NCBI GenBank assembly: GCA_029339195.1
Contig: JAPTJF010000100.1
Coordinates: 91,114-155,113 of the forward strand
Origin: Micractinium sp. NFX-FRZ
Lineage: Eukaryota > Chlorophyta > Trebouxiophyceae > Chlorellales > Chlorellaceae
Direction: 5' to 3'
DNA length: 64,000 nt
The notes below the pieces were generated by a model. It ran no database searches. It saw only the letters and a program-made list of their open reading frames with translations, and was not told where the DNA came from. Below, piece by piece: positions 147-55,046 of this stretch. The first letter of the stretch is position 1, and each line of letters begins with the position of its first letter. The position numbers were made by a program, and so were the translations under genes.

Positions 147-1938
147 ATGGCGTTGCCTCGCCTCGCGATGCTGCTGGCGCTGGTGCTGCTGCTGGCAGCT
201 GCCGCCCCACTGCCTGGCTGCGCCCGCAGCCTGCCCGGCCGTCAGCTGCAGCAGGCCGCAGCCCCAGACTCCTCAGTCACAGAACCTGCTGAAACTGAGG
301 CCCGCCCAGTCTACGGCTCAGCTGTGGGCCCCGCGCCTGGCGCGGAGAGCACCTCTGGCCCGGATCTGACCTCGCCCTACCGCCTGGCAGACGTGGGGAG
401 CGGCACAGCAGGGGAGGTAGCAGCCGCCATTGACGCCGGAGACGCCGCCCGCTTTGCCGCCGCCGCGGCCGCCGCAGGACCGGAGGCCGCAGGGCGTGCC
501 GTGACAGAGGCAGTGCGGCAGGGGCAGGGCGCCCTGGTGGCAGGCCTGGTGAACAATGCCACTGACAACCCCGCCGCTGCTGACGCGTTCCTAACGGTGA
601 TGAGGGGGAGGCCAGCGGGGTGGGGCTTGGGGTTGCGTTCAGCTGCGGCAGAGGTCGGCAGCTGGGGGAGGCGTGGCCGGAACCTGCACCTCTTGTTCCC
701 TGACCAGCTGAGAGCACATCTGTCCATTGCTGCCGCTGCAGGGCCTGTGGCCCGCCTTCTGCCTGGACCCGCCGGCCGCCTCCCAGGCGGTTGCCGCCGC
801 CCTGGCGGCAGGCGGAGCCGCGGCAGACGCTGCTGCCGAGGCCACGGTCACCGCCTCCCGCCAGTGCTGCGCTGCCACCCTGCTCACCCTGTCACGTGAG
901 TCGGCCTGCCAGGGTGTTGAGGTTCTGGCAGCAGTCGGGAACGGAGCAGCGGTGCCGAGACGTTAGGAATGCCACACTGGCAGGTTCCTGCCATGCTGCT
1001 GCGTTCCCGCCGCCCCTGCCTCTCATTCCTTGCACATCCTGACAGCACCTGCGCTCACATCAACGCTGTCCTCCATCCATTCCGCTCCCCTTGCTCCCAC
1101 CCAATCTTACTATTCTTACTGCCTGGCCCTCCTGTTTGAGCATTGGCCGCCAGCACCAACCGACAGCCCCAGACGCACTCCTCCCCGCCTCCCTTCTTGT
1201 CCCCTCCTCATTCCCACAAGCGGCTGCCGGGCCGGCGCCGGCAGTGCACCCTGCCACCCGCGCCCGCCCTGCCAGACCAGACCAGGCTCCCTCCCTTCCT
1301 TCCCAACCCTCCTGCCCTCCTCACTGCTGTCTGCCCGCCGCAGAGGCTGCCGCCGCCGACGGCAGCTTTACCGGCGCCCTGTCTGACCAGCTCAAGGTGG
1401 CCGGCCTGGTGCTGCCTGAGTGCGCCACCCCGCCCCAGCTGGCGCAGCAGATGGGAATCACCGACACGTCAGCAACGGTGAGAAGAGCAGTTGTTGTGGA
1501 CCCCATCAACTGCTTACATGTACTGTCCATAGCATCTCTCACTGACCGGTCTAGCTGGGCTGTCCCATGACATATGTACTGACTATTCACTGGTAGTGGG
1601 GGAGCAGCTGTGCAGGTCTGGGCTGGCAACAGTGCCACCTCTGCCTCCGTCAGCACACACTGCTGGTTGGCCCTGCGCACCCGCCTGCCTGATAAGCCCC
1701 ACCCACCCCCTTCCAGCCCCCTCCCGCTGCGCAGGCAACCGCCGCGCCTGGCGCCTCCCCCACCGTCACCCCCGCCGCCACCTCTGTGGGTGCCCTGGCT
1801 CTGGGTGTGGCACCGGTTGCAGAGGCGCCCGCAGGATCGGTGGCAGACCCCAGTTTGGCCATCGGACCAGCAGCAGACCCCAGCAAAGCGCTGGCCGCTC
1901 CCGAGTACTCGGCTTCTGGGCACAGCACACAGCCCTGA
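147..1938 (+). CDS. Secreted Ala-rich protein, one-module member of the modular family
   Basis: Model: 147-596, 742-895, 1344-1477, 1735-1938; 313 residues, in frame throughout. The first ~27 residues form a hydrophobic signal peptide (Leu/Ala core), followed by a RQLQQ motif like the RRLQQ/RKLLQ found at the same place in the four other family members of this window. Residues 28-150 are low-complexity Ala/Gly/Glu. Exon 2 carries the first half-module (Cys before DPPAA, then a Cys-Cys pair) and exon 3 the second half-module (LPEC). Exon 2 enters in phase 0 and leaves in phase 1, and exon 3 enters in phase 1, exactly as in the paralogues. The C-terminal exon is Ala/Pro-rich. No enzyme motif is visible; function unknown, probably extracellular or cell-wall. 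Family assignment is weaker than for the larger members because the sequence is diverged. Confidence 0.6.
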
Positions 1939-2741
1939 GCTGGGCAGGCGGCGGTGCCACGTGGCATGCACTATGCAGCACGGGCACTGCACAGGCCTGC
2001 TGCCTGCTTGAGTGGGGCCTCAGATGGAGTGATCTGCAAGAGTCAGCCCCGCCGGGGTTCCTCCCGCGCCACGCCGGCTCCATCGCCCTTCAACCTTGCA
2101 CACCCGATGCGTTCTAGCGTTGCTGTTAACCCGCCTGCTCCACACCTGCACTGCACTTCAACAGACGCTGTTGGCTTGCCTGCCTGCCTCCCTGCCCGTC
2201 TGGTTGCCTGCCTGCACGAGCACCGTGACTTGATCGACACACACCAGAAGGTTTGGCGAGCGCATGCCTCAACTTGCCCAGACACCTGTTCCTGCCCATC
2301 CAGAGTGCACGCCTGAGATCATGCCACCTTGAATACACCGATAGGGTTAGTACACCTTGCAGTCATCTGAGTGCACAAACTGTAGTCAGGTGTTTTTACA
2401 CAGCACGTTGCAAGCAGGCATTCACAATGGGGATGGGGAGCGGCGGTGTACACGAGGGTGCTGCTGACAAGGGTGCAAGGGGGTCAAAATCGTGGGGCGG
2501 GGCATTGCTATACACACCCCGCCGGGCGGGTGGCTTCAGAGATCAGGAGGAATCATGGGCCAGGGGTGCAGCGCTGGCGCCGGGCAGGGCGGCGAATCAT
2601 ATGAGGGTTGCCTTTAGAAGAGGGGTCACACACAATTGAGTTGGGAGGCATCGTCAGGAGGGATCGTTGCTGTGCATGATGAGTCGGAAGCTGGCCGAGG
2701 GGTGTTGCTGGCATGTTGGGTTGCTTGAGGGACGAGATTCC
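1939..2741. other. Intergenic, convergent 3' flanks
   Basis: Lies between the stops of two converging Ala-rich genes. I see no conserved coding exon. TGTAA occurs on the minus strand at about 2394-2398, some 345 bases past the stop of the minus-strand gene. Confidence 0.5.
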
Positions 2742-5309
2742 TCACTTGCCGCCGGTGCCAGTGCCGGTGCCAGTGCCAGAGCCGGAGCCGGAGCCGGAGC
2801 CGCTGCTGCCGCCGCCAGTCCCGGACCCAGTGCCAGTGCCAGTGCCGGTGCCGGTGCCGGTGGGGGCAGGGGCGGGAGCAGGGGAGGGCGTGGCAGCGGT
2901 AGGGGTCATGGGGGCGGGGGCAGGGGTGGTTGGGGGGCCGGCGGGGGTGGCGGCTCCGCCCTGGACCTGCATGCATGGAACCACAGCAGGTGCAGCAGGC
3001 ACAATTGTGGGTAACGAGCAGGGCGGGCGGCTTCTGCGGCCCAACAAAAGCCATTCAGTGAGAGGCCTCAGAAGAAGTGCCGAGCCCCTGGCTGTGTGCG
3101 GGCCGGCAGGCCCCGCTCTAGTGCCCGCACTGGCACATGTCGGAAAACCGGCGGGCTGCCCCACCCACCCACCTGCACGGAAGCAGAGGTGAAGGCCTGG
3201 GTCAGGGGGGCGGCCTGGGCCTGCACAATGGTGATGAAGCACTGGGGGACTGGGGCGACCTTGGCAGCTGCAGGGCAGGGGAGGGGGGAGTGGAGGGGCA
3301 GGAGGTGGGCACGATGCTTGCTTGCGTGGCAAGCTGCATGCAGGCGGCTGGCCGCTCAGGTGAGCCCAGCTGCCACAGACGGGACACACCGCATCTGCCA
3401 GCTGTTCCACCACACTGAGCAAGCCTGCCCTGAGCACTGTGCGTGTTCCATCCACATCCCGCGCCCACCCTCCCCCTTGCAGACCTGCCAGGGCCTGGGC
3501 AAAGGCGGTGGCAAAGTTGCTGCCCGCAGACGCGGAGCTGGAGGCGGCTGCAAAGCGAGGGAGCGCAGGAGGAGGGGCAGGGGGAGGACGGTAAGCGGGT
3601 CGAGTGAGTCGGGTTGCATGCCGCCAGTGATCTACGGCAGATGGTGAAGCGTAGAAACAGCAGCAAGCACCGGCAGCCGCCCGGCAGGCCTGCCTACCGT
3701 GGCCCCCCTCCGCCTGCCTCGCCCCACCCTCACACCCAACCACTCACCGACCACGGCCTGTGCGGCGGCCTGGCAGCAGTTGTCCCACGCCTGGCTGACG
3801 GCGGTGGCGGTGGCGGTGGCCACGGCAGAGGAGCCTCCAGAGCTGGCCGTGGCGGTGGCGCGGGCGATGACCTGGCCGGCGGCCTGCGGGTTGGTGCAGA
3901 TGGCCTGGGCCAGACCCTGCAGAGGAGGGCAGAGCGGGGCGAAGGGGGAGGGGAGGGGAGGCAGGGTTGACGGGAGAATGGATCGGGAAGGAAGGGGAGG
4001 AGGGGACAGCCAGGGATCAAGGCGCACAATGTGAGGGAAGCCTGCCAGGGCTCCTGGTCTTAGGCTGCTCCTGGTCTTGGGCTGCTCCTGGTATTAGGCT
4101 GCTCCTGGTCTTAGGCTGGGACCTCGCAGGTGCTGCTGGGGTGAAGTGCCCCGGACCCCCTGTGCCTGCCCAGCTCCCCCGGGCACACGCATTGTTGGGT
4201 GCCCCAAAAATTGACCCCGCGGGCCCCTTTCACCCTGCACGCCCCTGCACCCTGTTGCGCTGCTCGTCTTGCTGCGGCGGAAGCTGCAACAATGGCACCC
4301 AACAGGGTCCAGCAGTCCACCGAAGAGGGCAGCCTGGAGCCCCGCCTCATGCCCCCCTCCCTTGCTCACCGTAGTGAAGGCCTGCACAATCACGGCGGTG
4401 GCGGATGCCCGGGAGACGATGTCCACCAGCTGCTGTCCCAGGTTGGAGGTGATGGCGGTGGCGATGGCGGTGGCGGAAGCCGCGGCCCCTGCAAGTGATG
4501 CGCACAATGAAACAATTATTGGGTGGCGGTGGGTGCTCAGATGGGGTGACAGCCAATGGCCGTGGTTCAAGCCTGGCACCTGCTGTGCCCGGTGCACTGT
4601 TGGGCTTTGCTGGATTGGGAGGGAGAGCAGCAGGCGGGAAACAGGTGGACAAGGGTTGAGGCACACAACCTAGCATCCAGGGAGGCGTGCAGGCATGGCG
4701 ACCGCCAGCTGCACAGCTTGCAACTGCTCTTCAGCAGTGCTCCCTCGCTCCCCTCACCCGCACTGGTGACGGCAGAGGTGAAGGCCTGAGCATCAGCCGA
4801 GGCGACAGCGCTGCTGATGGCCTGCGCGCCGCCACCGCCACCGCCAGCGGGGGCAGGGCTGGTGCCGGCGGGGGTGGGAGTGGAGGGTGCAGCGGTGGTT
4901 CGGGCGCCGGTGGTGGTGGTCTCGGCGGTGGGCGCCATCTGCTGCAGCCTGCGGTTGGGCAGGGCGCCTGCGAGGTTGGGAGGGGGGGAGGAGGGTTGCC
5001 GGGGGGCAGGGGTGGGAAGGGGGAGAGGTTGGTTGGGGGAAAGAGGCTGTAAACAATAGGTCACGAAGTGCCCGAGGCCAAGGGGAAGGTCACACAGCGG
5101 GAGCTGGGAGGGCATCAGGGAAGCTTGCCGGAAGTCGGCAGGGAAGCTGACGCACACAGCAGCACCCGCCAACCTTGGCCGCACCGCCCCATCTGCTGCT
5201 GCATTGCCCCAACCACGCGCTCTCTCTGCGCCTGAATGCGCTTGGGCAGCCCACCTGATGCGGCTACGGCGCCGAGCACCAGCACGAGGAGGAGCGACGA
5301 GCGGGCCAT
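2742..5309 (-). CDS. Secreted Ala-rich protein with one Cys module and a Gly-Thr/Gly-Ser repeat tail
   Basis: Model (minus): 5255-5309, 4758-4967, 4370-4488, 3748-3916, 3485-3547, 3173-3267, 2742-2966; 311 residues. Signal peptide is MARSSLLLVLVLGAVAAS, then LPNRRLQQM, matching the RKLLQ position of its paralogues. Exons 2-3 are Ala/Thr/Gly-rich. Exon 4 is a recognisable first half-module (LAQAICTNPQAA, later a Cys-Cys pair and QAAAQAV). The second half (VPQCF) is split over exons 5-6. The last exon is Pro/Ala-rich and then dominated by GT and GS dipeptides, which no other family member here has. Intron phases at the module borders agree with the paralogues. Likely extracellular; function unknown. 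The acceptor of exon 7 has alternatives, so the first few residues of the tail are uncertain. Confidence 0.7.
4036..4112. repeat. Short tandem repeat, ~20 base unit
   Basis: About four imperfect copies of a unit like CTCCTGGTCTTAGGCTG in tandem, inside the intron between exons 3 and 4 of the minus-strand Ala-rich gene. Non-coding. Confidence 0.8.
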
Positions 5310-6168
5310 GGTGGCTGCCGGTTTCGGGTTGCAGTCGGAAAGCCGGCCTTGGACTGTGGTGCAGGAAGGCGCAGGTAGCGACTAACTGAGACACAAACCG
5401 CGGTACACCGGTCAAGCACAACAAGCAGCTCGCCGGTCTGTGCCAAATCACCAAGTGCCCCCTGGACTTCCAGTGCTTTCCACCTGCAAATGTTTGTCAG
5501 ACTCGGCTGAAACACGCCAGCCTCGTTGCAGCTTCACATGACTGTACCCTCTCAGATAGACAGAGTCGATGAGCGGAGGTGGTAAGGCTATTGACTGCCG
5601 CGGGACGCACGCAGGCAAGGGAGATGTGCTGAAAGAAGAGGGTAAGAGCTGGGCAACTGCGGCACAGCTCTTATAGCGAGAAAGCACTCTGGAGTGGCTG
5701 ATTTGACTGGGGCGGATATATTTGGTAACACATGGAAAACGGATAACAGAAGGGAGTCGAAAGCGCATCTTGAAACTCCGCACTGACGGCGGCATGGCAG
5801 GCAAGGGAGTGTGACAAAAGAAGAGGTAGCAGCGGGGCGACGGTGGTGAGAGGTCTACAGCGTGGTGCAACCCTGTGTGGTGCTTTTGAGCTAAGCTGGG
5901 GCGGTGTGGTAACAAAGGGGGATGGAAATGGGGGCAGTGACGGACAGTAAAATGGCATCTTGGGGTTGGGAGCGCACACACGAGACTGCACGATGTGCGC
6001 GCCGCTCAAAACAGAAGGTGGTGACAGGGTGGGGACAGCTTGAGGCAGGTGGTAAAGGAAGGGTAGGGTCAGGCAGAAAGGGCGGCAGGCAGGGCAGCAA
6101 GAATGCACGTTATTTGGTAGTAGAGAACTGAGGTGGATGTTGGCTCACTCAGGATGGTGGGTGTGAGC
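5310..6168. other. Intergenic, upstream of the minus-strand Ala-rich gene
   Basis: No coding exon recognised. Less GC-rich than its surroundings. It contains two degenerate copies of a segment around 5585-5700 and 5778-5890 (shared GGCAAGGGA, AAGAAGAGGTA and CGGCGGCATGG-like stretches), so a local duplication is likely. Confidence 0.4.
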
Positions 6169-8349: not shown

Positions 8350-8719
8350 GAAGTGGACGGGTGGGGCACGACCTGCGGCGGGCAGCCGCGCGAGCGGCGT
8401 GAGGCAAGGGGCAGCGGTGAACCGGCACGGCAGCGCCGTTCTTGCCGCTCCCGCGCAGCGTAGCCTGTCGATGTTCTGGCATGATCCGCATAGTGCTGGG
8501 CCAGCAGGCGCTGTCAGGCTTTCGAGCCGACGTCACCCCCTTACGCCTTCAAAAGCGCACTCTAGGTGATCAGGCGGATGTCAGTTGATGTCTGCATTGG
8601 CATGGAAGCGTGTGCTGGAGCCTCGAGGGGAGCCTCGAGGGGGAGCCTCAGCTTCGTTTGGTACGCCAGCTTGGTGCGGGCTGCACTGATTACTTGTAAC
8701 CCAATTGTAAGACACCAAG

Positions 8720-23081: not shown

Positions 23082-25401
23082 TCACTTGCGTCCGCCGAAG
23101 ATTGTAGCGCCAGCAATGGCAGAGGCGAAGGCGGAAGACAGGGTCAGGATTTGAGGCACGCACTGCTGGGGCAGGGCGCTGGCGGAGGAAGCCGAGGCGA
23201 CAGCGCTGGCAAGTGCCTGGGCGACACCGCCACCCTGGGCAGACGCCGAAGCCTGGGCCTCTGCAGGGGGGGAAGAGAGGGGCGGCGGGGAGGAGGAGGC
23301 ATGGTGTCACTGACTTCACACCATTGGGGCGGCACGCGTTGGGGCTGGGGCAACAGCGAGCCTGCTTGTGCGCCCCCCCCCCCGTATTGTGTGGGCTCCT
23401 GGTTGTTTCCCTGGGGCTGAGATCAACGCATCTTCCCCCCACAAATGCGCTCACCTGCCAGGGCGGTGGAAAGGGCCTGGGGGCACTGGGAGCAGGCCTG
23501 TGTGATGGCCTGGGCGCAGGCGGCAGACCCCGCACCGGCGGCGGCCTGGGCCAGGGCGGAGGCGGCTGCCTGGGGGCTGGAGCAGATCTGCTGGGTCAGG
23601 CTCTGCAGGCAGGGAGGGTGGGAAAAGCCTGTAACGAGGAAGCGGATGTAATTGAGGTCAGGTTGGTGTGCAGGGAGGAGGGGAGGGTCCGTGGCAGTAC
23701 ATATGTTTGGGTGTGAAGCTCGGCGGTGTGTTACTGGCCTCTGAGAGATGCGGCACCAGCCAGCGGGCAGGCTACTGCCGGCTGTCACACCTGGGCGGTG
23801 GCCTGAGCGGATGCCTGGGCTCCGGCGCCAGCGCTGGCGCCACCGCCTGCCAGGGATGGGTGCAGGGATGGGTGCAGGGTATAGAGGGCCACACCACAGT
23901 AAGGCGGCCAGTTGCACCGTGCAAAGATGCAGGCTGGTCAAGCATACGAAGCAAAGACACCCGCGGCGTGCACTCCCGCTCAGTTTGCCCGGCCTTTGCA
24001 GATAGCCTCCCTGCCCCCACCCTGGGCGCCAGCGGAGGCCTGGGCGGATGCCTGAGCTCCGGCTCCGGCGCTGGCACCGCCGCCTGCCAGGGATGGGGTG
24101 CAGCGCAGGGATGGGGTGCAGGATGGGTGCAGTGCAGGGGTGGGGGGCCACTCCTCTGGAGCACGGAAGGCGACCAGTAGCGCAGAGCAAAGATGCAGGT
24201 TGCTAAGCATGCGAAGCGAAGGCCCTGCGGCGCGCACTCCCGCCCAGTCTTCAGGCCACCCGGCCATGCACCCTGCCGTGGAGATAGCATCCCTGCACTA
24301 ACCCTGGGCTCCAGCGGAGGCCTGGGCGGAGGCGGCAGCCTGAGCCACGCCCTGGGGGATGCACTGCTGGGGCAGCTGGCCGCTGGCCTGGGCCGAGGCG
24401 ACAGCAGAGGCGAGGGCCTGAGCGCCACCGCCGCCCTGCGCGGACGCTGAAGCAGAAGCAGAGGCCTCTGCGGAGGGGCAGGGAGGCCGGGAGGCACGGC
24501 AGATATTGGTGCTTGAATTGCATGCAGGAAGAGTGACCCCCCCACACAAGAACACACAAGGACCCCCCTCCCAGGCAATCCGTCGTGAGGCCAGCTCACG
24601 TGCCAGGGCGGTGGACAGGGCCTGGGGGCACTGGCGGCACGCCTGGGTGATGGCCTGGGCGCATGCCTCGCCACCCTGGGCACCGGCGGTGGCCTGGGCC
24701 AGGACGGAGGCGGCGGCCTGGGGGCTCTGGCAGATCTGGTCAACCAGGGTCTGTGGGAGCGAAGGTGGGGTGGGGGCAAGATTGTGTGGGCGCGAGGTGG
24801 CCTAGGGCACGGATGACGCGGGCAGGTTGGGGCGCCTGGGGCTGGAGAGGCCAGAAGCAGGTTGGGGGTCAGGGGCTAGAGCGGCCGGATCTGTACGACC
24901 ACCCCGGGGGGCGTTCATCATCACCCACCGCAGCTTCCCCCTTGCATCCCTCCCACAGCTGGCTTCCCTACCTGAGCCTGCGCCTGGGCAGAGGCAGAGG
25001 CAGAGGCAGAGGCAGAGCCCGAGGCCGAGGCCTGCGCCTGGGCAGAGGCTGAGGCAACAGCCCCCGCCTGCAGGAGCTTGCGCCCGCCGTTCAAGGAGCC
25101 TGCGAGGAGGGGCAGGCGGGGAGGCACGGGGAGGCAGTTGGCGAGGAGGGGCGGGTCATGGTGCGTGGTGCAGGTGCCAGTGGGGCAGGCGGGGGTGAGA
25201 CCTGCAGGAAAGAGGCGTACCGGATGAGATGGCCGGGGCCATGAGGGCGGTCCCGCCACCGCCCCACCCAGCCCGCCCAACTTCCTGGGTCCCCAGCGCC
25301 AGCCCTGGCCCCGCCGCCCTCCACCACGCACCGATGTTGTCGGCCGCGGCGCTGCACAGCAGCAGCACCAGCGGCAGGAGGCTGCCACAGCGAGGGTTCA
25401 T
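23082..25401 (-). CDS. Secreted Ala/Gln/Ser-rich modular protein, two modules
   Basis: Model (minus): 25332-25401, 24972-25099, 24600-24750, 24303-24467, 24021-24083, 23791-23846, 23455-23602, 23082-23260; 319 residues. A signal peptide (LLPLVLLLCSAAAD) is followed by GGRKLLQ and an Ala-Ser-Gln linker. Each module has half 1 (TLVDQICQSPQAA ... CRQCPQALSTALA; TQQICSSPQAAASALA ... CSQCPQALSTALA) and half 2 (LPQQCIPQ; LPQQCVPQ), each half in its own exon, with phases 0-to-1 then 1-to-1. A Gly/Ala linker exon pair sits between modules. Both half-1 segments here have an extra Cys before AQAIT that the paralogues lack. The protein ends in FGGRK. No enzyme motif; silk-like composition suggests an extracellular structural role, which is inference. 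Confidence 0.8.
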
Positions 25402-26625: not shown

Positions 26626-29600
26626 TCACCTGCGGCGGCCGCTGGCAGTGACAGAGGCGTCGGCGGAGGCAGACGCCTGGGCCAGGCTCTGAGGCACGCA
26701 CTGTGAGGGCAGGGCGCCGCCCGACTGAGCAGAGGCAACCGCGGAGGCCAGGGCCTGGGCGGCACCACCACCAGAGGCCTGGGCGGAGGACTGAGCCGAG
26801 GCGAGGGCGGAGGAGAGGGCCTGGGGGCACCGGTTGCAGGCCGTGGCAATTGCCGCGGCGGCGGCCTGAGCGGAGGCAGAGGCGGCACCGCCGCCCTGTG
26901 CACCGGCGGCGGCCTGGGCCAGGGCGGAGGCGGCGGCCTGGGGGCTCTGGCAGATCTGCTGGGTCAGGGCCTGCAACAGGAGTGCGGAAGGATATCAATG
27001 GGTATAGGCTGTTATATGGACTGTGCAGTGCACACAACGGACCAGTGCTGCGAGGGAAGGGTGGAGGGGCGGGGGGGCGGGGAAAGCTGGCTAGGCTGCG
27101 TGACCGAGGCATGTGGCAGGCAGCACAGGTGGGAGTGCTATGCATTTGGGAAGGGTTGCACGCCAAGTGTGTGCACTGCTGTGCTCCACCCAACAACCAA
27201 GGTCAGTTAGGCAGCAAGCAGGGCCACCGTGGGCAGTTGACTGTGCGCACCTCGGCGGTTGCAGTTGCGGAGGCCTGGGCGCCGGCACCGCTGGCACCAC
27301 CACCGGCACCACCTGCAGGCACGAAGGAGGGTGTGTATGGCGGCACGGCCGCTTTGGATAACAGGTGTGGAAGATACAGATCTAGGGTGTGTTGGACAGT
27401 AGAAGAGCAGGAAAAGAATAGGTTCAGATGAAAACGCGTCCCATCTGCACTGCACCCTGCAACTCGACTCCTCCGCTGTCCAACGTCCCGCACCGCACCC
27501 TCACACCTCGCTCCCCTCATCCATCCACAACCCACCCACCCACCCACCCTGGGCGCCAGCGGAGGCCTGGGCGGAGGCGGCGGCCTGGGCCAGGCTCTGG
27601 GGCACACACTGTGAGGGCAGGGCGCTGCTGGCTTGGGCCGAGGCGACAGCAGAGGCGAGGGCCTGAGCACCGCCGGCGCCCTGGGCGGACGCGGAAGCCT
27701 GGGCCTCTGCAGGGGAGGGGTGGCAGCGAGGCAGGCAGATAGGGCAGGCGGTTGTAAGATCTTATTTGGGACTCCCAAATAAGATGTTGGGCCAGCGAGC
27801 TAGCTGGGCTCTGGCTGTCAGCAGTGGCAAGGGAACAGCATGCCGCGGCGCTCCCAAGCAAGGCTGGATGCCACTCACGTGCCAGGGCGGTGGACAGGGC
27901 CTGGGGGCACTGGGAGCAGGCCCGCGAGATGGCCTGGGCGGCAGCTTGTGCGGAGGCGGAGGCGGCACCACCCTGGGCGCTGGCGGCGGCCTGGGCCAGG
28001 GCGGAGGCGGCGGCCTGGGGGCTCTGGCAGATCTGCTGGGTCAGGGACTGCAGCAGTGGAGGGCAGGAGTGGGCAGGCGTGGTTGGTGCCGCAGTGTGAA
28101 TGGGGCACACTGAGAAGGGAGGGGGCAAGGCAGGGATGCCGACCGAAAGCACGCGCCGCCAGCCAATCAGGCCTTGCCCGACGGCCGCCCTCACCTCTGC
28201 GGTTGCCTGGGCGGAGGCCTGGGCGCCGGCACCGCTGGCACCACCACCGGCACCACCACTGGCACCACCTGCAGGCAGGCACGGTGGTGGGTTGCCTGTC
28301 ACGTCAGGCTGCTTGAGGGGGCCAGCTCAGGCATAAACGGGGGGTGGGAGCTGCCAGCCGCCACTGGCTGTGAGATACAACCAGCAGCAGAAAGCACCCT
28401 TGTGCTCCGCACAGTTGAACACGCCCCCCCCCCCCGGCCCTGGCCACCCTCCTCCGCTTACCCTGGGCGCCAGCCTGGCCGCCTGCCTGACCGCCGGCGG
28501 CACCACCTGCAGAGGCAAGCGTCGTGGCAGCAGCACATTACAGTGTGTGAGCAGAACCGGGGAGGGTGTGGAGGGGGCAGGGACATGTGTGTGCCCTTCG
28601 GCAGATGTAGAAGGGCCGCCCCCCCGCTTCCCACACCCAACCAAGCAACTGTGCCCCTCCCGCCCCACCCACCCACCCACCCTGGGCGCCAGCGGCGGCC
28701 TGGGCGGAGGCAGAGGCCTGGGCCAGGCTCTGGGGCACGCACTGTGAGGGCAGGGCACTGCGGGATGAGGCCGAGGCGACAGCGCTAGCAAGTGCCTGAG
28801 CGGCGCCGCCGCCCTGAGCAGAGGCGGAAGCTTGGGCCTCTGCAGGGGAGGGGAAGAAGGCAGGCAGGAGGCAAAGGGTGGTTATGGAACAGCCAAGGGC
28901 TGTTAAGCAAATCCGTTCAAAAAGAGGAAAGTGAACGCCAAGACAGCTTGGGCCGCCTGCAACGCAGCCTAGCCCGCTCACGTGCCAGTGCGGTGGACAG
29001 GGCCTGGGGGCACCGGGAGCAGGCTTCGGTGATCGCCTGGGCAGCCGCCTGAGCGTCGGCAGAGGCGGAACCACCCTGTGCACTGGCGGCGGCCTGGGCC
29101 AGGGCGGAGGCGGCGGCCTGGGGGCTCTGGCAGATCTGCTCGACCAGCGACTGCAAGGGGTGGGAAGAGGGTAGGAGAGGCAGCAGAGGCAGGAGCAGCT
29201 GGGTTCGGCATTCAGGACGTGTGAAAATCGACTTGATCACAGTGTGCGGAGAGGGCGGGTTTGGTGGGCTGAGGGGGCGTCTGGGGCGAGTGTGTTGAAT
29301 CAATAAATCAAAACAGCGGGCAGGATCCTTTCAGCCCACTCGATAGTAGGTACCTGCCGCAGGCGGCGGCGGCGGCGGCGGCCGCGGCGGCGGCAGGCGG
29401 CGGCGATGAACATTGCCAGCCAACAGGCGGGGGGGCCACCGTCAAAGCCATTCGCACCTGCGCAGTTGCGATCGCGGTTGCTTGCACGGCTGAATCACCG
29501 GTGGCTTGGGCGGTTGCATCCGCAGATGCATCGCCACCCTGAAAGGGGTGGAGGGGTGGGATGCGCGGCCAGGTTGGGAGGCATGGGAGGGGCAGGAGGC

Positions 29601-30097
29601 GGTACTGCAGACAACATTGACGCCTGGAATCCGTCAGGGTACAGCCGCCGGCCTCCCACCAAGCCCCACGTCCCACTAGGTGCCTACCGTGGACGTGGCC
29701 TGGGCGGTGGCGGAGGCGGAGGCTTGCAGGAGCTTGCGTCCGCCCTTGAAGGATGCTGCAAGGCAGGGGGTGGATAAGGGGTAAGTGAGGCGGCCGGCGG
29801 CGGGAAGGCCTGACTTCACATGCAGCCGGCTGGTGAAGCGGTTAGAGGCCCCTGCGGTCATTTAATGGCCATGTGGTCTGCAGCTCATCCCGACGAGGTA
29901 GAGAGGCAGGGGTTGGAGAGAGCGCTGGTCCCGTGCCGCCCACTCCGCACCCACTCCGCGCCCGCCCGCCTTCCGAGCCTTCCCGCCCGCCACAACAACC
30001 TTCCGACCCCCCATCCCCCGGGCGCACCATTGTTGCTAGCTGTGGCGCTGCACAGCAGCAGCGCCAGCGCCAGGAGGCTGGCAACGCGGTGCGCCAT
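26626..30097 (-). CDS. Secreted Ala/Gln/Ser-rich modular protein, three modules
   Basis: Model (minus): 30028-30097, 29688-29755, 29458-29538, 28982-29150, 28681-28839, 28462-28506, 28195-28268, 27879-28047, 27548-27706, 27251-27312, 26626-26970; 466 residues, in frame over ten introns. Signal peptide SLLALALLLCSATAS, then GGRKLLQ. Three modules, each with IC-QSPQAAASALAQ, a CSRC/CSQC/CNRC pair in half 1 and LPSQCVPQSLAQ in half 2, separated by Gly/Ala linkers. Modules 1 and 2 use two exons each. In module 3 both halves lie in one uninterrupted exon and the junction is shortened, so that intron has been lost. The end is Arg-rich (SGRRR) versus GGRK/GRK in the paralogues. Function unknown; extracellular structural protein suspected. 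Confidence 0.82.
29358..29404. repeat. GGC/GCC trinucleotide repeat
   Basis: Run of GGC units inside an intron of the three-module Ala-rich gene. Confidence 0.8.
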
Positions 30098-46304: not shown

Positions 46305-49300
46305 ATGTCCAAGGCTCCCAAGACCGTGCTTGTGACCGGTGCCGCAGGTGTGGGCCGACAAACGTGGCCAATGCGCAAGGGTTGACACTCCAACTGCATG
46401 ATCCCCTCGATCCGAGGCGCACCCTGCCCTTCTGCCAAGTCCAGCGCCGCTTGGGAAGGGTCCGCAATGCGCCGATGGAGGAGCGCAGCGGTGGGAGTGG
46501 CCACGCAGGTGTAGCGGCGGCACCGGCGGCGGCGGCAGCGGCGGCAGAGGACTCGCGCTCAGCGGCCCCGCCTCACCTCGCTGCTCATCCCATTTTTTGC
46601 CTGTTGCGTCCACGCTCCCCTTCCCCGCCCCGCAGGCCAGATCGGCTATGCCATCTGCCCCATGATTGCTCGCGGCGCCATGCTGGGCCCCGACCAGCCC
46701 GTCATCCTGCACATGCTCGACATCGAGCCCGCCAAGCAGGCAAGCGGGGAGAGGCGTGGGTGGTGCTGCCTGTGCAGGCAGGCGCCTGCATGTGGGGGGT
46801 TTGCAGTCGCCATGGGCGGGCTGTACCTGGCTGTGTGCATGAGCAGCAGGAGCGAAGGGATCTTATGCACAGCTTGCACAGGTTGCAAGGACTGCGCACC
46901 GAGTGGCGCCACGAGCTGGCGCCCTCTTGACGGGCGCTACCTCGCCATGCAGCCTCCTTTGGTTGCGCTCGCCTCGCCTCCCTGCCCGCCATCAATCAAC
47001 CTCCCTTGCCATCTGCCCTGTCTCTTCCCACGCAAGCGCTGGAGGGCGTGCGCACGGATCTGGGGCTCCTCATTCCACACACAACGTGTCGTGACGGCTG
47101 CATTCCTTCCGTCACCCCCCTGCCCCCCCTGTTCCCCCCACCCCCCTTCAGGCGCTGGAGGGCGTGCGCATGGAGCTGGTGGATGCCGCCTACCCGCTGC
47201 TGGCCGGTGAGTGCATGGAAACGGGGTGCTATATGGATTTCGCCATCGAGTGCATGGCGGGTGATGGCGGGTGATCGACGGTTCTCATGAACGGCTGCAA
47301 GCACATGGCAGGGTTGCACCGTCAACTCACCAGCGATAGTGCGCACGCTGCACCGCAGTTCAACTGTGCGGGCCGTGCAGTCCCTGCACACCTTGCCGCA
47401 CAGCTTCTCACCGCCCGCCCTTCCCACGGTTAGCTACCGCCCCCCCGCAGGCGTGGTTGCCACCACCAGCGCCGAGGAGGCGTGCAAGGGCGTGGACGTG
47501 GCGGTCATGGTGGGCGGCTTCCCCCGCAAGGTGAGGGCCAGTGTTCATCTTACCTCTTTTTGCTGCAAAGTTTGTGAAGACTTGAATGGTGGGAGGCTCC
47601 CCCCCAAAGGTGGGTGGGCAGCAGCACCAGCGGGGGACACACACGTCTCTTGATCTCACAAACTATGCAGCAGCTTTGGTAGGCACACTGCGTGTCCTGT
47701 TGTGCCTGCCCGACCCATCTCCTGCTCGTTGCCTCTCCACAGCCTGGCATGCAGCACAAGCATTTGATGTCCAAAAACGTGGCACCGCCTGTCACTCATC
47801 CTCCACTGCTGGCCCTCCCTCCCCACTCTGCCTTGTCCTGCCAGGCGGGCATGGAGCGCAAGGATGTGATGAGCAAGAACGTGGCCATCTACAAGGCGCA
47901 GGCGTCCGCACTGGAGAAGGGGGCCAACCCCGGCTGCAAGGTGGGGGCGCGGGCAGACGGCCCGCCTCTCTGGGCTGCCACCGCCATGCCGTGCCGCCCT
48001 GGCTCCACGCCATGCTGCGCTGCGCTGCATGTGACAGCGGTGGCCCGCCCCGCCGCACCACCAAAGCGTGCTCATAGCTCGCACACTTCACAACAATGTG
48101 CCGTGCTGACCTGGCTCCACGCTGCGTGCCGTGCTGTGCTGTGACGTGATGTGGCGCAGGTGATTGTGGTGGCCAACCCCGCCAACACCAACTCCCTCAT
48201 CCTCTCTGAGAACGCGCCCTCCATCCCCAAGGGTGAGCAGGATGGCATACTGGCAGGGGCTGTGTCATGAGCAGGGCCTGCCGCCTGCCGCATGGGCCTG
48301 CTGAGCCGCTGGATGCACGCACCCGTCGTACTTCAGAGGGCAAGCCGGCCAGCGGGTGGGGTTGCAGCATGTGCACCCACCCGCTGTGCGGCACCACACC
48401 ACTTGAACCCAGCGCTGCCTTCTTCCCACGTGCTGCCCCTCTGGCCCAGCATTCCCACCTCGTCTTCCCCCGCCTGCATCCTGACCCCTGCTCCCCGCCC
48501 TCGTTCATTTGTGTGTGTCGTGTGCAGAGAACATCACGTGCATGACCCGCCTGGACCACAACCGCGCGCTGGGCCAGCTGAGCGAGCGCAGCGGCGTGCA
48601 CGTGAGCAAGGTGAAGAACGTCATCATCTGGGGCAACCACTCCTCCACCCAGGTGAGCTGGGGGCCCAAGCAGTACCGGTGTGAGGGTGTTGGTACTGCA
48701 AGCTGTGGGTCACCTGGGGCCACCACTCCTCCACCCAGGTGAGGGTACGAGCAGCATATGCGATAGAGGCGGTTCAAGTGTGTTAGGGTGCGCGTCAGCG
48801 GGGTGAAGAACTTCATCAGATATCATGTGTGGGCAATCGCTATCAGACCTGAAAGGCGCTGGCTGCATGCTGGGTTCTCTCCACCACTCCGGCTGCATGC
48901 TGGGTTCTCTCCACCACTCCGGCACTCTCCTCACCCCTTGGCCTACATGCCACCACCATCCACGCCACTTCCCCACCCCACCCGCAACCAGCAACAACAC
49001 TAATCCTGCGTCCTCCCCCTCCTTCCTTCGCAGTACCCCGACGTCAACCACGCCACCATCGACGGCAAGCCCGCCCGCGAGGTGATTGGCGACGACACCT
49101 ACCTGGACGGCGACTTTGTGACGTGCGTGCAGCAGCGCGGCGCCGCCATCATCAAGGTGCGTGTGCGGCGGCAGGCCGGGGCCCTTGCTTGAAGGGCTCC
49201 CGCACCAAACAGGGAGGGATGAAGACAGCAGCTAAATAATGAGGTTGGTTTGAGTTCAGTTTTGTGAGTGGGGGACCCGCGATGCCCCACATGGTCGGCG

Positions 49301-50732
49301 AGTTGGGTGCCTCTGTGCGGCAGCGCGGCGCGCCCGTTATCATGTTGTTGCCAGAATGGTGACAGAATGATGAATGCATGAAGAGGGGCGGGCTGTGTTG
49401 TCGCGGGGGCATGCACCCAACAAGCAAAGTGAACCCACGGTTTGCGAGTGTGCCCTTGGGTCCAGCTGGGGCGCACCCGCCCCCCCACCATTCTTCCCTC
49501 CCTGCCTTCCCGGGATGTGTGAAATCATCCCACCTCCACCATCATTTGGCCGACTTGCGCTGGCTTACCTTCCTCCCACTCCGCCCCCACTCACGTTGCA
49601 GGCGCGCGGCCTGAGCTCCGCCCTCTCCGCCGCCTCCTCCGCCTGCGACCACATCCGCGACTGGGTGCTGGGCACGCCAGGTACGCAGTGTGTCGCTTGG
49701 CGCTTCTAGCGGCGGCGCCCCCTCCCCTCCCAAGGCATCCCGCTGTCCTGTGCTCCCATGATCCACTCGTGCAGAGGGGGTACCTAGGCGTCAAAAGGGC
49801 ATGCGCAGCCTCTCGGCGCCTGCTCCCCTCCCTTCCTCCTACCCATCCTGCTGCCCTGTGCTCCCATGCTCCACTCGTGCTGCAGGGGGCACCTGCTGTG
49901 TCTATGGGTGTGCACAGCGACGGCCTTCATGGCTCCCCCCTTTCTCATCCTGCTGCCCTGTGCCCCCATGCTCCACTCATGCTGCAGAGGGCACGTATGT
50001 GTCTATGGGCGTGTACAGCGACGGCAGCTACGGCGCCCCCAAGGACATTGTCTACTCGTTCCCCGTCACCTGCAAGGACGGCAAGTGGAGCATCGTGCAG
50101 GTGGGTGCTGGAGAGAGGGAGCAGGGAGGTTTCTGGGGTCGGGACGGACATGTGGGGCGTGGGATTCGGGCTGTCAGGTCAGGCTGTGGGTAGGTGCCCT
50201 TACTCCGGATTATCAAGCGGCATGATGACAAGGACACAGGCCTTGACTTGTTGCCTGCCTGCCTGCCCGCCCGCCCGCCTGCATCTTCCCCTCCACTCTC
50301 CTCATGCGCCCGCGGCGGCTACTCTGGTGTTTTGCCTGCCGTCCTCAGCCTCCCACCTGCACCGCTCAAACCCCAGAGACCCCAGCACTTCTCATCCCCT
50401 GGCTCCTAGCCCTCTCCATGGAGGTGGCCACAATGGGGCTTGTTCTGAGCAGTGATCATTTAAGAGGCATCTGCCACCAGGATCGGTGCCCGACCGTGCT
50501 CTCATTCATCTGTTTTCCATTTCTTTGTGTGTGCAGGGCCTTGCATTGACAAGGCGTCCGCCGCCAAGATGAAGTCAATTGGTTGTGGTGCACTCTGATC
50601 TGACAGATTTCTATATATATTTGTGTGCAGGGCCTGTCCATCGACGATGCGTCCGCTGCCAAGATGAAGGCGACCGGCGAGGAGCTGGTGGAGGAGAAGG
50701 CGCTGGCCATGGAGTGCCTGGCTGACGCGTAA
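46305..50732 (+). CDS. MDH: NAD-dependent malate dehydrogenase, cytosolic type
   Basis: Model: 46305-46347, 46636-46739, 47152-47206, 47451-47530, 47845-47940, 48160-48232, 48528-48652, 49034-49156, 49602-49680, 49988-50100, 50631-50732; 330 residues, the normal length of cytosolic MDH, which interconverts malate and oxaloacetate. It shows the NAD-binding [10 protein letters not shown] (12-21), [29 protein letters not shown] (substrate loop with both Arg), [19 protein letters not shown] with catalytic Asp160, and [12 protein letters not shown] with catalytic His188. No plastid or mitochondrial extension precedes [10 protein letters not shown]. Intron 2 has a GC donor (CAG|GCAAGC). Most introns carry a degraded copy of a neighbouring exon edge, listed separately; these were excluded because using them would break the frame or the conserved protein. 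Confidence 0.97.
47034..47066 (+). repeat. MDH echo: start of exon 3
   Basis: GCGCTGGAGGGCGTGCGCA, then diverging, 118 bases before the true exon 3, where the same sequence encodes ALEGVRMEL. The acceptor is degraded from CAG to CAA. Confidence 0.9.
47585..47617 (+). repeat. MDH echo: end of exon 4
   Basis: AATGGTGGGAGGCTCC, then CCCCCAAAGGTGGG, in intron 4 copies ATGGTGGGCGGCTTCCCCC...AAGGTGAG at the end of exon 4, donor included. Confidence 0.85.
47750..47783 (+). repeat. MDH echo: start of exon 5
   Basis: CAGCCTGGCATGCAGCACAAG, continuing to AACGTGGC, copies the acceptor and first ~33 bases of exon 5 ([13 protein letters not shown]) with about eight substitutions. Lies 95 bases upstream of the true exon. 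Confidence 0.9.
48027..48062 (+). repeat. MDH echo: start of exon 6 (degraded)
   Basis: GCATGTGACAGCGGTGGCCC, then CCGCC-CACCA, parallels GCAGGTGATTGTGGTGGCCA at the exon 6 acceptor. Confidence 0.6.
48711..48745 (+). repeat. MDH echo: end of exon 7, with donor
   Basis: GGGGCCACCACTCCTCCACC, followed by CAGGTGAG, repeats the exon 7 3' end (WGNHSSTQ) and its donor 90 bases downstream. Confidence 0.95.
48788..48832 (+). repeat. MDH echo: second copy of an exon 7 segment
   Basis: GGGTGAAGAACTTCATCAGA and flanks match AAGGTGAAGAACGTCATCATC in exon 7 (VKNVII). With the preceding echo, this places two pieces of exon 7 in intron 7. Confidence 0.75.
48855..48920. repeat. Tandem duplicate in MDH intron 7
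   Basis: Two exact head-to-tail copies of a ~33 base unit beginning GGCTGCATGCTGGGTTCTCT. Confidence 0.95.
49301..49350 (+). repeat. MDH echo: end of exon 8
   Basis: GTGCGGCAGCGCGGCGCGCC, then GTTATCAT, parallels GTGCAGCAGCGCGGCGCCGCC-ATCATC at the end of exon 8 (VQQRGAAII). Confidence 0.8.
49740..49935 (+). repeat. MDH echoes: two extra copies of the exon 10 acceptor edge
   Basis: Two copies at about 49740-49800 and 49845-49935 precede the true exon 10 at 49988. All share CCCATGCTCCACTCGTGCTG and CAG-GGGGCAC; the second also shares TGTCTATGGGTGTGCACAGC with the exon (VSMGVYSDG). Confidence 0.93.
50522..50575 (+). repeat. MDH echo: start of exon 11
   Basis: TTTGTGTGTGCAGGGCCTTG, then CATTGACAAGGCGTCCGCCG and CCAAGATGAAG, copies the acceptor and first ~40 bases of the last exon ([13 protein letters not shown]). 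An intact CAG acceptor makes it a usable decoy; using it would bring in extra sequence. Confidence 0.95.
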
Positions 50733-51416
50733 CTGACGCGTTGACCGGCGGGCGGGGCGGCGGGCGGCGTGTTGCTGGTGCAGAGGACCCGGCTGGCTCA
50801 CGGGTTGGCTGTGCGTGGCAACAGCGGCGATGAGGACTTTAGCATGCATGTGTTTCACTGCGTGCTACCTTGGCACCCTTCAGCTGAAGCCCTCGCCCGG
50901 CGTGCGCAGTGTCGCAGCGCCGCATTTTTGCACCCTGATTCCCTCTCCCAAATGTGCACTTCGTGTGCGCCGCAATTTTTTTGCGCTTCGCCTGTGGATA
51001 ACACCTTCGCTCAGCAGTGAGAATCGGTCAGCAACAGGAGGCAAACGGAACGGGGTCGCTGCGGTGTGTCTGTAGCGGCGCCGGCGGGACTGCAGAGAGC
51101 GAGCGCGCCGGCGGCAGGCAGCACCATGCCCAGCTGCGGCCTGCGCAACCTCTCCGGCCCTGCAACAGCATTTGAAGGTGTGGGAACGCCATTAGGAGGC
51201 TGCATGAAGGCGCGACAGGCCGTAATGGCCCGCCCCATGCTGCTGCCTGGGTCAGGTACAGGTAGACTGCAGGGTAGCCTTCCTCCCTGAGGTGCAACCT
51301 TCCCCGACGCGTTGTAGCGGCCTTCTTATACTCGCGGTCGCGCCATCTCTTCTTCACCTTTATCCGAGGCTCTCTCGGCTTGCCGCTCTCCCTCTCCCAC
51401 CCGCCCTCGGAACACT
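50733..51416. other. Intergenic between MDH and the Ala-rich gene
   Basis: No coding exon recognised. A TATA-like TTATAC lies at about 51326, ~90 bases before the next ATG. Confidence 0.45.
51326..51331 (+). promoter_or_regulatory. TATA-like element
   Basis: TTATAC in a GC-rich flank, ~90 bases upstream of the three-module gene's ATG. Tentative. Confidence 0.25.
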
Positions 51417-54400
51417 ATGGCGCCCCGCGTTGCCAGCCTATTTGCGCTGGCGCTGCTGCTGTGCAGCGCCGCGGCCAGCAACAACGGTGCGTGGAGTAAG
51501 GGTGCAAGCGGGTCCAAGGCGTAGGGTTCAGCCTGGGGCCCTGGGAGGTGGGCGGGCTTGGGTCGGTGAGTAGGCGGCGGCAGGACAGTCCGAGGCCGCC
51601 GGCTGTTTCGCCCGTTGCACCTCTCTGCCCCCTCCCTGCAATGCTGTATGCATGCAGGTCACTATCAGTCGATCACGGGTCTTCCCAGATGTGCATATGC
51701 CTCGGCAACGTGCACCCCCTCCTGCCCGCCGATCGCCTCCCCGCTGCCTCCAACCCGACCTCCTCATGCAGGCCCCCTGAATTCTTCGAAGGGCGGGCGC
51801 AAGCTCCTGCAGGCCTCCTCTGCCACCGCCTCGGCTCAGGCGATGGCGCAGGCTCAGGTGGGCATCTGGTGGGCTCAGGAACCACTCGGCGCTGCCCCCA
51901 CCCCACCTGCCTCATATCGCAGACGCCCGGTCTCCGCCCATACACATCCTTACCTTATCCCCCCGCCCCCATGCGTTGCAGCCACTTGCCAGTGTTCCCT
52001 AATCTGCACAGCAGCTCAGAATCCACTCCTGCCCCTCTTCTTTTTTCTTGCAGAGCCTGACCCAGCAGATCTGCCAGAGCCCCCAGGCCGCCGCCTCCGC
52101 CCTGGCCCAGGCCGCCGCCAGCGCCCAGGGTGGTGGCGCTGCCTCTGCCGACGCTCAGGCCGCCGCCATGGCCATCACCCAGGCCTGCTCCCAGTGCCCC
52201 CAGGCCCTCTCCACCGCCCTGGCACGTGAGTGGGGCTCGGTTCTTGTGTGGGTAGGGAAGAAGAAGAAGATTACAGCCCGAGGGCGTGGGGTGAAGCCCA
52301 AGGCACCAGTCAGCTACCAGGTCTGGGTAGGGCTGCCGCTGCCAGCAGTGCCGCTGGATTTTCAGGGGAGAGGAAAGGTCAGCGGGTTTGCTCCAATTGC
52401 TTTTCAGCCAACCACTGAACCACTACTGCTCCTGCCTGCCTGCCTGCCTGTTTCCTCGGCCTGCTCCCTTGCAGAGGCCGATGCTTCTGCTTCTGCCCAG
52501 GGCGGCGGCGCCTCTCAGGCCCTCGCCAGCGCCGTCGCTTCTGCCCAGGCCAGCGCCCAGCTGCCCTCACAGTGCGTGCCCCAGAGCCTGGCCCAGGCCG
52601 CCGCCTCCGCCCAGGCCACCGCTGGAGCCCAGGGTGGGTGGGTGGGCGGGTCGTGAAAGGATGCTGGGTGGGCTGGCTGGCTTGGTGGTCTTGTGGATAG
52701 CAGCGGGCGGCGCACCACCGGCTTTGGGGGTTGTGGCAGTGACTGACTGGGGGAGATGACTGAGCGACGCATGAGCCGGCGGGCGGGGGGGCGGGCAATA
52801 TCCTCACAGCTGGAGACAGCCCTAATGGCCTTCGGCTGACTGGCACAGCCAGCCTTGTTGGTAAAGGGTGCAACAAGCCAATCCCTCTTCACCAATCCCT
52901 CTTTACATTTACCCTCAGCCGCCCTTACTGAGCTATACTGACATCCCTGGTGACTGCCTGCAGGTGGCGGCGGTGGTGGTGCTAGCGGTGCCGGCAGCCA
53001 GGCGCAGGCATCTGCAACTGCAACCGCCCAGGTGCGGCCACGCGACTGCCTGCGCCCACCTGCCAGCTGGCGGCGCGTGCATGAGAGGGCCAAGCACAAC
53101 AGCTCACAACAACATAAGCTGAATGTTCTCTGCCCAAGCGAACCACTGCCCTTCCACTCCCTCATGCACACCAAACTTGGATTGCCATCCCGCCCCTCCG
53201 CCCCTGCCCTCCCCCGCTGCAGTCCCTGACCCAGCAGATCTGCAACAGCCCCCAGGCCGCCGCCTCCGCCCTGGCCGAGGCCGCCGCCAGCGCCCAGGGT
53301 GGTGCCGCCTCTGCCTCCGCCCAGGCCGCCGCCCAGGCCATTGCCGCGGCCTGCAACCAGTGCCCCCAGGCCCTGTCCTCCGCCCTCGCGGGTAGGTTGG
53401 GATTTGGCGCAGTTGTGGGACGCTCTCCTGGGGACCCTGCACTTGTGAAGCAGGCTGTGTGAGGACTCATCTTGCTTCCTGACTGCCGGGTGCTGGAGCC
53501 AGGCAGCCTGGGTGCCGCCATGCAGCGCACCGTGTTCCAAGGCCTGCCCCTGCTGCTGCTGGGGCCGGCCAGGGCTGGACTCGGTTTGGCTAGGCAGGCA
53601 GGTGCTGAGCACGCAAGCGGGGAGGTCATTGCTTTGCTGGCCACCCACCACTCGCATCACACGCATTGTTGATCCCGCCTGCCTGCCCGCTCCCCCTTGC
53701 CCTGCAGAGGCCCAGGCCTCCGCCCAGGCCCAGGGCGGTGCCCAGGGCGGCGCCGCCCAGGCGCTGGCCAGCGCTGTTGCCTCTGCTCAGGCCGGCGGAG
53801 CCCTCCCCCAGCAGTGCGTGCCCCAGCCCCTGCAGCAGGCCGCCCAGGCCTCTGCCCAGGCCACCGCCACCTCCCAGTCCATGGGTGAGTGGCGCAGTGT
53901 GTGCAGCGCGTGCGTGCGCGTGTGTGGTTGGAAACCGCGGGCATGGATGGGTAGAGAGGCAGCGGAGGGCAGAGTGGAGAGCGTGCCATCTGGTTGCTGA
54001 AGGGGTCCCATGTTGTCACCCTCACAGGCACGCCTCGGCACGCCTGCTAGCGTGACCCAGCGCACAAGTTGTGGCCTCTGCATGGTTCTGTCCCCTCAAA
54101 CTCCCACACCCAACCCTTCTGCCGGGCCCGCCCCACTATCATCTCCGCAGGTGGCCAGGCCTCCTCCCAGGCCGCCGCTCAGGCCACCTCTACCGGCGGC
54201 CAGGCTACCTCCACCGCCCAGGCCACCGCGACTGCACAGGTGAAACCCTCTGTGCTGGGCTTGGGTCGACCCGTCGTGGCTGCCTGTGCCTGCCTACCTG
54301 CCTGCCTGGCCCTTGGTTGGCTGCTGGCACACCCTCCTCATGTGCCTGTGACCACCCTGCCCCACCTGCCCTCCCGCCTCCCCGTGTCCGCACGTCTCCC

Positions 54401-55046
54401 CCGATCCAAAGCGTGTGCAAACAACCACAGTGCTAGAGTCAGGGTTGCTCCTGTTCACGTTGATCGCCTTATCTCTCTTACACCTTCCCCACTCCCACCC
54501 CCACAGTCCCTGGTCCAGAACATTTGCAACAGCCCCCAGGCCGCCGCCTCCGCCCTGGCCCAGGCCGCCGCCAGCGCCCAGGGTGGCGCCGCCACTGCTG
54601 ACGCTCAGGCCGCCGCCATGGCCATCGCTCAGGCCTGCAACCAGTGCCCCCAGGCCCTCTCCACCGCCCTGGCACGTGAGTGGGGGTCTGCAGTTGTGGG
54701 TGGGATGCGGTGAGTCCACGAGGGGGCAGCCAGCCGTCTGGAGTGCACAGAATGGGGAGCAGCAAGCTCTCCTGCCGACTGCACAAGCACGCCTGCCGCC
54801 AGCCCTGTCGCAGCTGGCACGACCCGTCACCCCGCCTGCCTGACCTCCCTCCACGCCTCCTGCTCCTCTGCAGAGGCTGAAGCTCAGGCGTCCGCTCAGG
54901 GCGGTGGTGCCGCCCAGGCCCTCGCCTCCGCTGTTGCCTCGGCTCAATCGGGCAGCGCCCTGCCCTCACAGTGCGTGCCTCAGAGCCTGGCCCAGGCCGC
55001 CGCCTCCGCCCAGGCCACCGCCGGTGCCGGCGCCGGTCGCAAGTGA
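51417..55046 (+). CDS. Secreted Ala/Gln/Ser-rich modular protein, three modules
   Basis: Model: 51417-51486, 51772-51857, 52054-52225, 52475-52633, 52964-53031, 53223-53391, 53708-53884, 54151-54239, 54507-54675, 54874-55046; 443 residues. Signal peptide SLFALALLLCSAAAS, then GGRKLLQ. Three complete modules, each on two exons: half 1 SLTQQICQSPQAAASALAQ ... CSQC or CNQC-PQALS-AL, half 2 ALASAVASAQ ... LP.QCVPQ. Linker exons rich in Gly, then Thr/Gln, separate the modules. Exon 1 is almost identical in length and sequence to that of the minus-strand three-module gene at 26626-30097, so the two are recent relatives despite ~21 kb and five unrelated genes between them. Ends in GRK. Silk-like composition; no enzyme motif. 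Confidence 0.87.

Follow-up and report, generated by a model that had tools for sequence, protein, structure and literature searches.

Secreted, cysteine-containing modular proteins of silk-like composition predicted in the green alga Micractinium sp. NFX-FRZ

A stretch of 64,000 nucleotides of Micractinium sp. NFX-FRZ (assembly GCA_029339195.1, contig JAPTJF010000100.1; C100:91114-155113), called here the window and ending at its 3' side with the contig, carries five genes, A to E, which encode proteins with a hydrophobic leader, a short basic motif and one to three copies of a cysteine-containing module of about 110 residues. We are far more confident that these genes are genuine and encode modular proteins with a leader than we are of the chain of mechanism proposed for them; we give roughly even weight to the reading that the proteins are secreted and structural, at the cell surface of the alga (wall, matrix or mucilage), and built as beads on a string from helical bundles pinned by disulfides. 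The rest of the genome (66 Mb and 838 contigs were searched) contributed genes F, G and H on contig C120 and gene I on contig C397, giving nine proteins for comparison.

The models of A to E were built by hand from the sequence and then verified in code, leaders being judged by hydropathy. Open, phase-consistent exon chains were found for all five genes that an earlier note on this DNA had proposed, with 10 modules among them (1, 1, 2, 3 and 3). The introns (n = 35) are GT..AG in 35 of 35 cases, a figure that is partly by construction since exon boundaries were chosen by the modeller; the continuous frames and the repeated intron phases are not. C and D adjoin each other with a common orientation, A and B are convergent, and E lies 21 kb from D. 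Across the window the GC content is 62-70% (2 kb steps) and the genes are intron-rich. The features are as follows (aa, amino acids).

147..1938, + strand: gene A, 313 aa, 4 exons (147-596, 742-895, 1344-1477, 1735-1938); leader, GRQLQQ, one diverged 'CC' module (742-895 with 1344-1477), Pro/Ala-rich C-terminus
2742..5309, - strand: gene B, 311 aa, 7 exons; leader, NRRLQQ, one 'CC' module, C-terminus with AP/TP/SP and then Gly-Thr/Ser repeats
3748-3916 (half 1) and 3485-3547 plus 3173-3267 (half 2), - strand: module of gene B
23082..25401, - strand: gene C, 319 aa, 8 exons; leader, GRKLLQ, two modules, tail GGRK
24600-24750 with 24303-24467, and 23455-23602 with 23082-23260, - strand: modules of gene C, an extra Cys in each
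26626..30097, - strand: gene D, 466 aa, 11 exons; leader, GRKLLQ, three modules, tail SGRRR
28681..29150, - strand: first module of gene D (exons 28982-29150, 28681-28839)
27548..28047, - strand: second module of gene D, D2 (exons 27879-28047, 27548-27706)
26626..26970, - strand: third module of gene D, D3, a single exon; input for structure prediction
51417..55046, + strand: gene E, 443 aa, 10 exons; leader, GRKLLQ, three modules, tail AGRK
52054..52633, + strand: first module of gene E (exons 52054-52225, 52475-52633); used in the own-genome DNA search
53223..53884, + strand: second module of gene E, E2 (exons 53223-53391, 53708-53884)
54507..55046, + strand: third module of gene E (exons 54507-54675, 54874-55046), including the basic C-terminal tail

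In C, D and E the module has the cysteine pattern IC-x2-PQAA ... CxxCPQ ... LPxQC, and in A and B it has CC instead of CxxC; modules hold four Cys, or five in gene C. Several residues before CxxC are missing from both gene C modules, which hold their extra Cys there (ACAQAI), a gene-specific change. The intron after half 1 is in phase 1 in all nine modules that have one, and D3 (26626-26970) has its halves fused in one open exon at the position of the other copies' intron; since D3 is whole in one exon, the two half-modules form one unit. The joining of exons, on which the earlier note had made its proposal depend, is thus upheld by D3, at least for the two halves of a module. P0001, which comes from an ENA contig and looks like an unspliced translation, likewise reads both halves, and the non-matching sequence between them begins directly after half 1.

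When the modules of C, D and E were compared in pairs, exon alignments of 247-331 bases with 73-88% identity were obtained in 26 of 28, the remaining two (C1-D3 and C2-D3) being listed with short pieces only (70 and 69 bases, 94%), and the seven introns inside these modules showed no alignment to one another at an expectation value (E) <= 1e-3. The ratio of nonsynonymous to synonymous substitution, calculated by a simple counting method, was 0.22-0.54 in 28/28 pairs, which suggests that selective constraint acts on the module protein. The module tree groups E2 with D3 (96% ultrafast bootstrap; other nodes 38-71%), and as module copies do not group by gene, module copying seems at least in part to predate the separation of D and E. 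An ancient duplication as the origin of half 1 and half 2 was suggestive (z-scores of 2.7 to 4.9 in three pairs, simple shuffles only) and is not claimed. Part of the intron of E's first module (52254-52337, best over about 36 bases at 52257-52292) is a dispersed repeat; of the 47 matches listed in the own-genome DNA search, 32 are to this stretch and lie on other contigs at 71-100% identity.

All nine proteins begin with a hydrophobic leader (best 11-residue hydropathy mean 2.6-3.3; highest later 19-residue mean 1.64), followed in 9/9 by a short, loosely defined basic motif (RKLLQ, RKLL, RNLL, RRLQ, RQLQ or RKLR). Within the window this agrees with the earlier description of a leader, an R-x-LQ/RKLLQ motif after it (RQLQ, RRLQ or RKLLQ) and one to three modules. 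Six of the nine (C, D, E, F, G and H) end in a basic tail; B ends in GGK, and A and I are without one. In the window RxLLQ occurs at 4 places against 0.67 expected, three of them in C, D and E and one on the strand opposite gene B. A genome-wide secretory motif was considered and dropped, given that RxLLQA is found at 120 places against 104 in a codon-permuted control, no clear enrichment; a backward control (4) was not codon-matched and was set aside.

Charged residues make up 2.7-4.3% of C, D and E, and Pro 2.6-3.4% of these, 1.6-2.8% of F, G and H, 7.4% of B and 9.3% of A. The silk-like look reported earlier goes beyond composition, by way of an alternation of Ala with period two: the z-score of Ala at lag 2 is +11.0 in C, +9.4 in D, +9.2 in E, +8.8 in G, +8.0 in H, +6.3 in F, +5.2 in I and +5.0 in B; at lags 1, 3 and 5, B to I all have negative values. 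The relatives in other genomes described below reach +7.6 (P0002), +8.3 (P0003) and +3.3 (P0007). Among 303 other open reading frames (ORFs) of the window of at least 100 aa only two reached z 4, both of them readings of one poly-Ala repeat in which lag 3 (5.7, 5.8) comes near lag 2 (6.4, 6.3). In C, D and E the position between two Ala is filled mainly by Ser, Gln, Ala, Leu, Gly and Thr, and every one of the four Ala codons is in use, so the pattern is not a plain hexamer expansion. Hexamers do occur locally, as a short run at 24987-25031 in gene C and as a GCCGGT-type array at the end of gene B (2751-2862, 18.2 copies, 77% matches) that codes its Gly-Thr/Ser repeats.

Moreover, hydrophobic residues recur at spacing four in 8/8 segments examined, a set without gene A (z +2.2 to +5.3), which together with the Ala alternation gives a rule of roughly Ala-x-Ala-hydrophobic. 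Placed on a helix this rule would produce a hydrophobic stripe flanked by Ala, and spacing four fits helices. A beta-silk reading of the alternating Ala was rejected for the module, which favours helices by both this spacing and the helical model given next; pure (Ala-Ser/Gln)n linkers lie outside that judgement.

AlphaFold2, run on D3 as a single sequence, predicted helices only (residues 2-8, 10-24, 30-47, 49-66, 69-83 and 94-111), with a predicted local distance difference test (pLDDT) of 77.7 and a predicted template modelling score of 0.65. The four Cys fall at or near helix ends, where disulfide pairing would be possible. Fold searches with the predicted module gave no significant match, a result that excludes no family. 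In Pfam no family was above cut-off for the nine proteins (best E below cut-off 0.014), nor was any in NCBIfam for E and G; a match to a characterised domain, which the earlier note had named as telling against it, is thus absent at those cut-offs. Against PDB sequences one module as query gave none at E <= 1, and a profile query gave five at E 1.8-2.4, which is chance level, one of them a spidroin (2n3e, E 2.4). No description of the family was seen among the literature matches listed, as represented by title and start of abstract. The family therefore appears undescribed in the libraries searched, as the earlier note had supposed.

The second cluster (C120:117591 to about 123411) is a head-to-tail row of F (179 aa), G (182 aa) and H (171 aa). 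All three encode a leader, RKLLQ, RKLL or RNLL, a linker rich in Ala and Ser, a single module and a basic tail (RRRS, RRRM, KRK); each mature chain contains exactly four Cys (ICSGD...C-x2-C...GGxC). F has its module in a single exon, G and H have theirs split, and H has two GC..AG introns. The term 'tandemly expanded' used for the family holds for C and D and for F to H, and fails for the converging A and B and for the distant E. Gene I (L048, C397:38200-48100) encodes 190 aa with a leader, RKLR, alternating Ala and 14 aromatic residues; with only two Cys in its mature chain it is a looser relative, and there may be a wider class of such proteins in this genome.

With gene A as query, the own-genome search matched only gene A itself, and with gene B it gave 30 matches at E <= 1, many of them weak and on other contigs; the best (C155, E 0.0026), the sole one inspected, had by eye no leader and no module. 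Further weak matches lie on C586, C492, C27, C348 and others for the B query, on C700 and C190, and on C213 and C14. Counts from these searches are lower bounds where the family is large. As to the neighbours in the window, Pfam scans of 20 ORFs gave two above cut-off, which cover part of a molybdate transporter and part of a lysine methyltransferase.

With gene D as query, a homologue search matched P0001 (identity 71% across 15% of D), the EukProt protein P0002 and P0003 from Chlamydomonas sp. UWO 241, these three at E <= 1e-3. A profile search (A5) found nine at E <= 1, four of them (P0001, P0004, P0005 and P0006) at E <= 1e-3; P0004 contains half a module, and P0007 of Micractinium sp. CCAP 211/92 stood at E 3.1e-3. 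An X-masked alignment as query gave nothing at E <= 1; the single protein and the unmasked profile did better. Each of the three homologue searches scored only the 8,000 candidates that shared the most words with the query, within a restricted length range, and absence from their results says little for that reason. Pattern scans of viral contigs (357 stretches) and prokaryote genomes (591 stretches) confirmed no relative.

Because alternating Ala richness makes ordinary shuffles overstate similarity, simple-shuffle tests were too lenient (P0009 reached up to z 9.5) and were replaced by a null in which every Ala was kept in place (11 segments, 55 pairs, 500 shuffles each). Among the modules D2, B, A, P0002, F, G and H, 14 of 21 pairs exceeded all 500 shuffles; in the other seven the score was reached by 1 (B-F), 4 (B-H), 22 (A-P0002), 169 (A-F), 24 (A-G), 21 (A-H) and 25 (P0002-H) of the 500. 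D2 scored z 8.8 with P0002, 8.3 with F, 7.5 with B, 7.1 with G, 5.8 with H, 5.5 with P0003 and 3.7 with A. Gene A is the weakest of the seven, tied among the other six only to B (z 7.4) and D2, and gene I gave z 4.6 with F, 3.7 with B and 3.1 with D2. P0009 (ENA, 243 aa) has a similar look, with a leader, SASASA/GNGN repeats and Cys, and no measurable relationship under this strict null (z 1.9 or less against all other segments); its resemblance is possibly convergence.

P0002 (scaffold34.g4503.t1) is family-like in its leader, RKLLQ, linker and one module with ALC...CQRC...PQC; it differs in having a single module and a tail without a basic run, and in that the gene model puts it behind a phosphohexomutase, in a fusion that is probably an annotation error. 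The phosphohexomutase part has Pfam PGM_PMM I and II (best NCBIfam model phosphoglucosamine mutase, below cut-off). Since one gene model joins the two, the phosphohexomutase gene and the silk-like gene probably lie side by side in the source genome. Such sugar mutases can feed the synthesis of glucosamine polymers; the adjacency may be coincidence. P0007 (hypothetical protein ABPG77_009425, uncharacterised) is like gene A over most of its length, with a leader, RRLLQ, a four-Cys region and a Pro/Ala-rich tail (z 6.6 at full length, 5.6 without the first 40 residues, 0/500 shuffles each; A-P0007 z 6.0 as segments). It is not linked to D's module (93/500 shuffles reached its score with D2). P0003 scored z 6.3 with F, and its scores with B and P0002 were reached by 45/500 and 61/500 shuffles; since only one of its Cys aligns with a Cys of the others, it is counted merely as a loose relative. 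With relatives in an ENA contig, a EukProt species, another Micractinium and, loosely, Chlamydomonas, 'lineage-specific', as the family had been called, is too narrow and not supported; judged by sequence similarity, its range is wider than one lineage.

Spidroins have helical-bundle domains, and tubuliform and aciniform silk have Ala/Ser-rich helical repeats. The algal proteins share with them a leader, richness in Ala, Ser, Gln and Gly, predicted helical modules with linkers, a variable module number and, in C, D and E, few charges; unlike them they have four Cys in each module (five in C), modules that introns interrupt, chains of 171-466 aa, an RKLLQ-type motif and a basic C-terminal tail, and no spidroin domain was found in the Pfam scans of the nine proteins, the PDB profile reaching E 2.4 at best. 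HRGPs (hydroxyproline-rich glycoproteins) are green-algal matrix proteins according to passages of a review (PMC10762512), a location the volvocine HRGPs and pherophorins would share with our family. Against this likeness stand the low Pro of C, D and E and an AP/TP/SP-rich tail in B alone. Glycomodules rich in Pro or hydroxyproline, the latter invisible in sequence, are lacking in C to H, with B and A as partial exceptions, and the Pfam scans of the nine contained no pherophorin domain. Green-algal non-specific lipid-transfer proteins (nsLTPs), as described in PMC9832785, are Cys proteins of helical fold with several introns, two Chlamydomonas genes lying head to tail; Cys, a helical fold (here predicted), several introns and head-to-tail genes are thus shared, and four or five Cys per module replace the eight-Cys motif with CC and CxC. 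Judged by the sequence features tested, the family belongs neither to the spidroins nor to the HRGPs or nsLTPs; it may work like modular silk-like structural proteins, with no claim of descent from spidroins.

In the structural reading, the leader would direct the chain into the secretory path, and the basic RKLLQ-type site a little further on may be trimmed. The mature chain would be a string of beads, each a helical bundle of about 110 residues predicted from one model, whose four Cys could form two disulfides that pin it, with Gly and (Ala-x)n linkers between beads. The nearly uncharged chains of C, D and E could pack through Ala-lined surfaces, the basic tail could hold the chain to acidic polysaccharide, and length would be set by module number (1 to 3) and gene copies. 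In favour of this reading, Pfam placed neither an enzyme domain nor a binding domain above cut-off in any of the nine proteins. As the earlier note itself said of the structural or wall role, export to the surface, function there and assembly are inference.

Several observations weigh against this reading. Gene A has a lag-2 Ala z of 0.1, 11.5% charged residues and no basic tail, and the charge of F, G and H is 9.5-11.0%. ORFs on the strand opposite the family genes also show raised lag-2 Ala, up to z 7.1 (z 6.7 at 52518-53786, - strand), so part of the signal lies in the repeat structure of the DNA. Single-module proteins with just 171-182 aa are short for fibre proteins. The predicted structure comes from one sequence (pLDDT of the five models 77.7, 73.4, 72.1, 58.9 and 58.2), no fold match stands behind a structural role, and the evidence as a whole is sequence and prediction.

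Other functions have to be weighed against the same features. Secreted carriers of hydrophobic ligands or binders of hydrophobic surfaces, in which the bundle would hold a lipid or coat a hydrophobic surface like fungal Mp1p-type domains or lipid-transfer proteins, are a function that we regard as unlikely. The low complexity, the few charges of C, D and E and the Gly/Ala linkers of variable length would suit mostly disordered, sticky or hydrated mucilage proteins, whose Ala, Gln, Ser and Gly serve adhesion, flocculation or water holding and whose Cys only cross-link; hydrophobics at spacing four, a fairly confident single-sequence helical model and recurring Cys and Pro positions argue for folding instead, which makes such disorder quite improbable.

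Dibasic RK/RR sites close to the start and in the tail, along with paralogue clusters in two places, could point to defence peptides or signalling precursors from which Cys-containing fragments are released. Between leader region and tail D and E lack such sites, so their multi-module chains would not be cut into modules, and with no known family matched we hold this very unlikely. The least probable of the alternatives to our mind, with only a slim chance, is that of Ala-rich helical proteins which are surface-active or ice-active at interfaces: the helices are predicted to be Ala-rich and the loose relative P0003 comes from Chlamydomonas sp. UWO 241, an Antarctic alga, yet no antifreeze family was among the Pfam hits (the 11-residue antifreeze repeat was not searched for).

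To our knowledge little has been written on the proteins of Chlorella-type walls. In the main text of a 2023 review on the green-algal extracellular matrix, as far as it was available (PMC10762512), the words 'silk' and 'alanine' do not appear. Returning to the reading of structural surface proteins, we put forward tentatively, as a somewhat unlikely extension of it, that green algae evolved a silk-like modular material independently of animals: secreted, disulfide-pinned (Ala-x-Ala-hydrophobic)n bundles that would self-assemble in the wall or matrix of Chlorella-like algae, perhaps further, with length tuned by module copying. A compact family with a clear module, a code of periods two and four and a testable helical-bundle prediction may offer an entry point to wall toughness, flocculation and harvesting; if the idea were true it would mean convergent evolution of a silk-like design outside animals.

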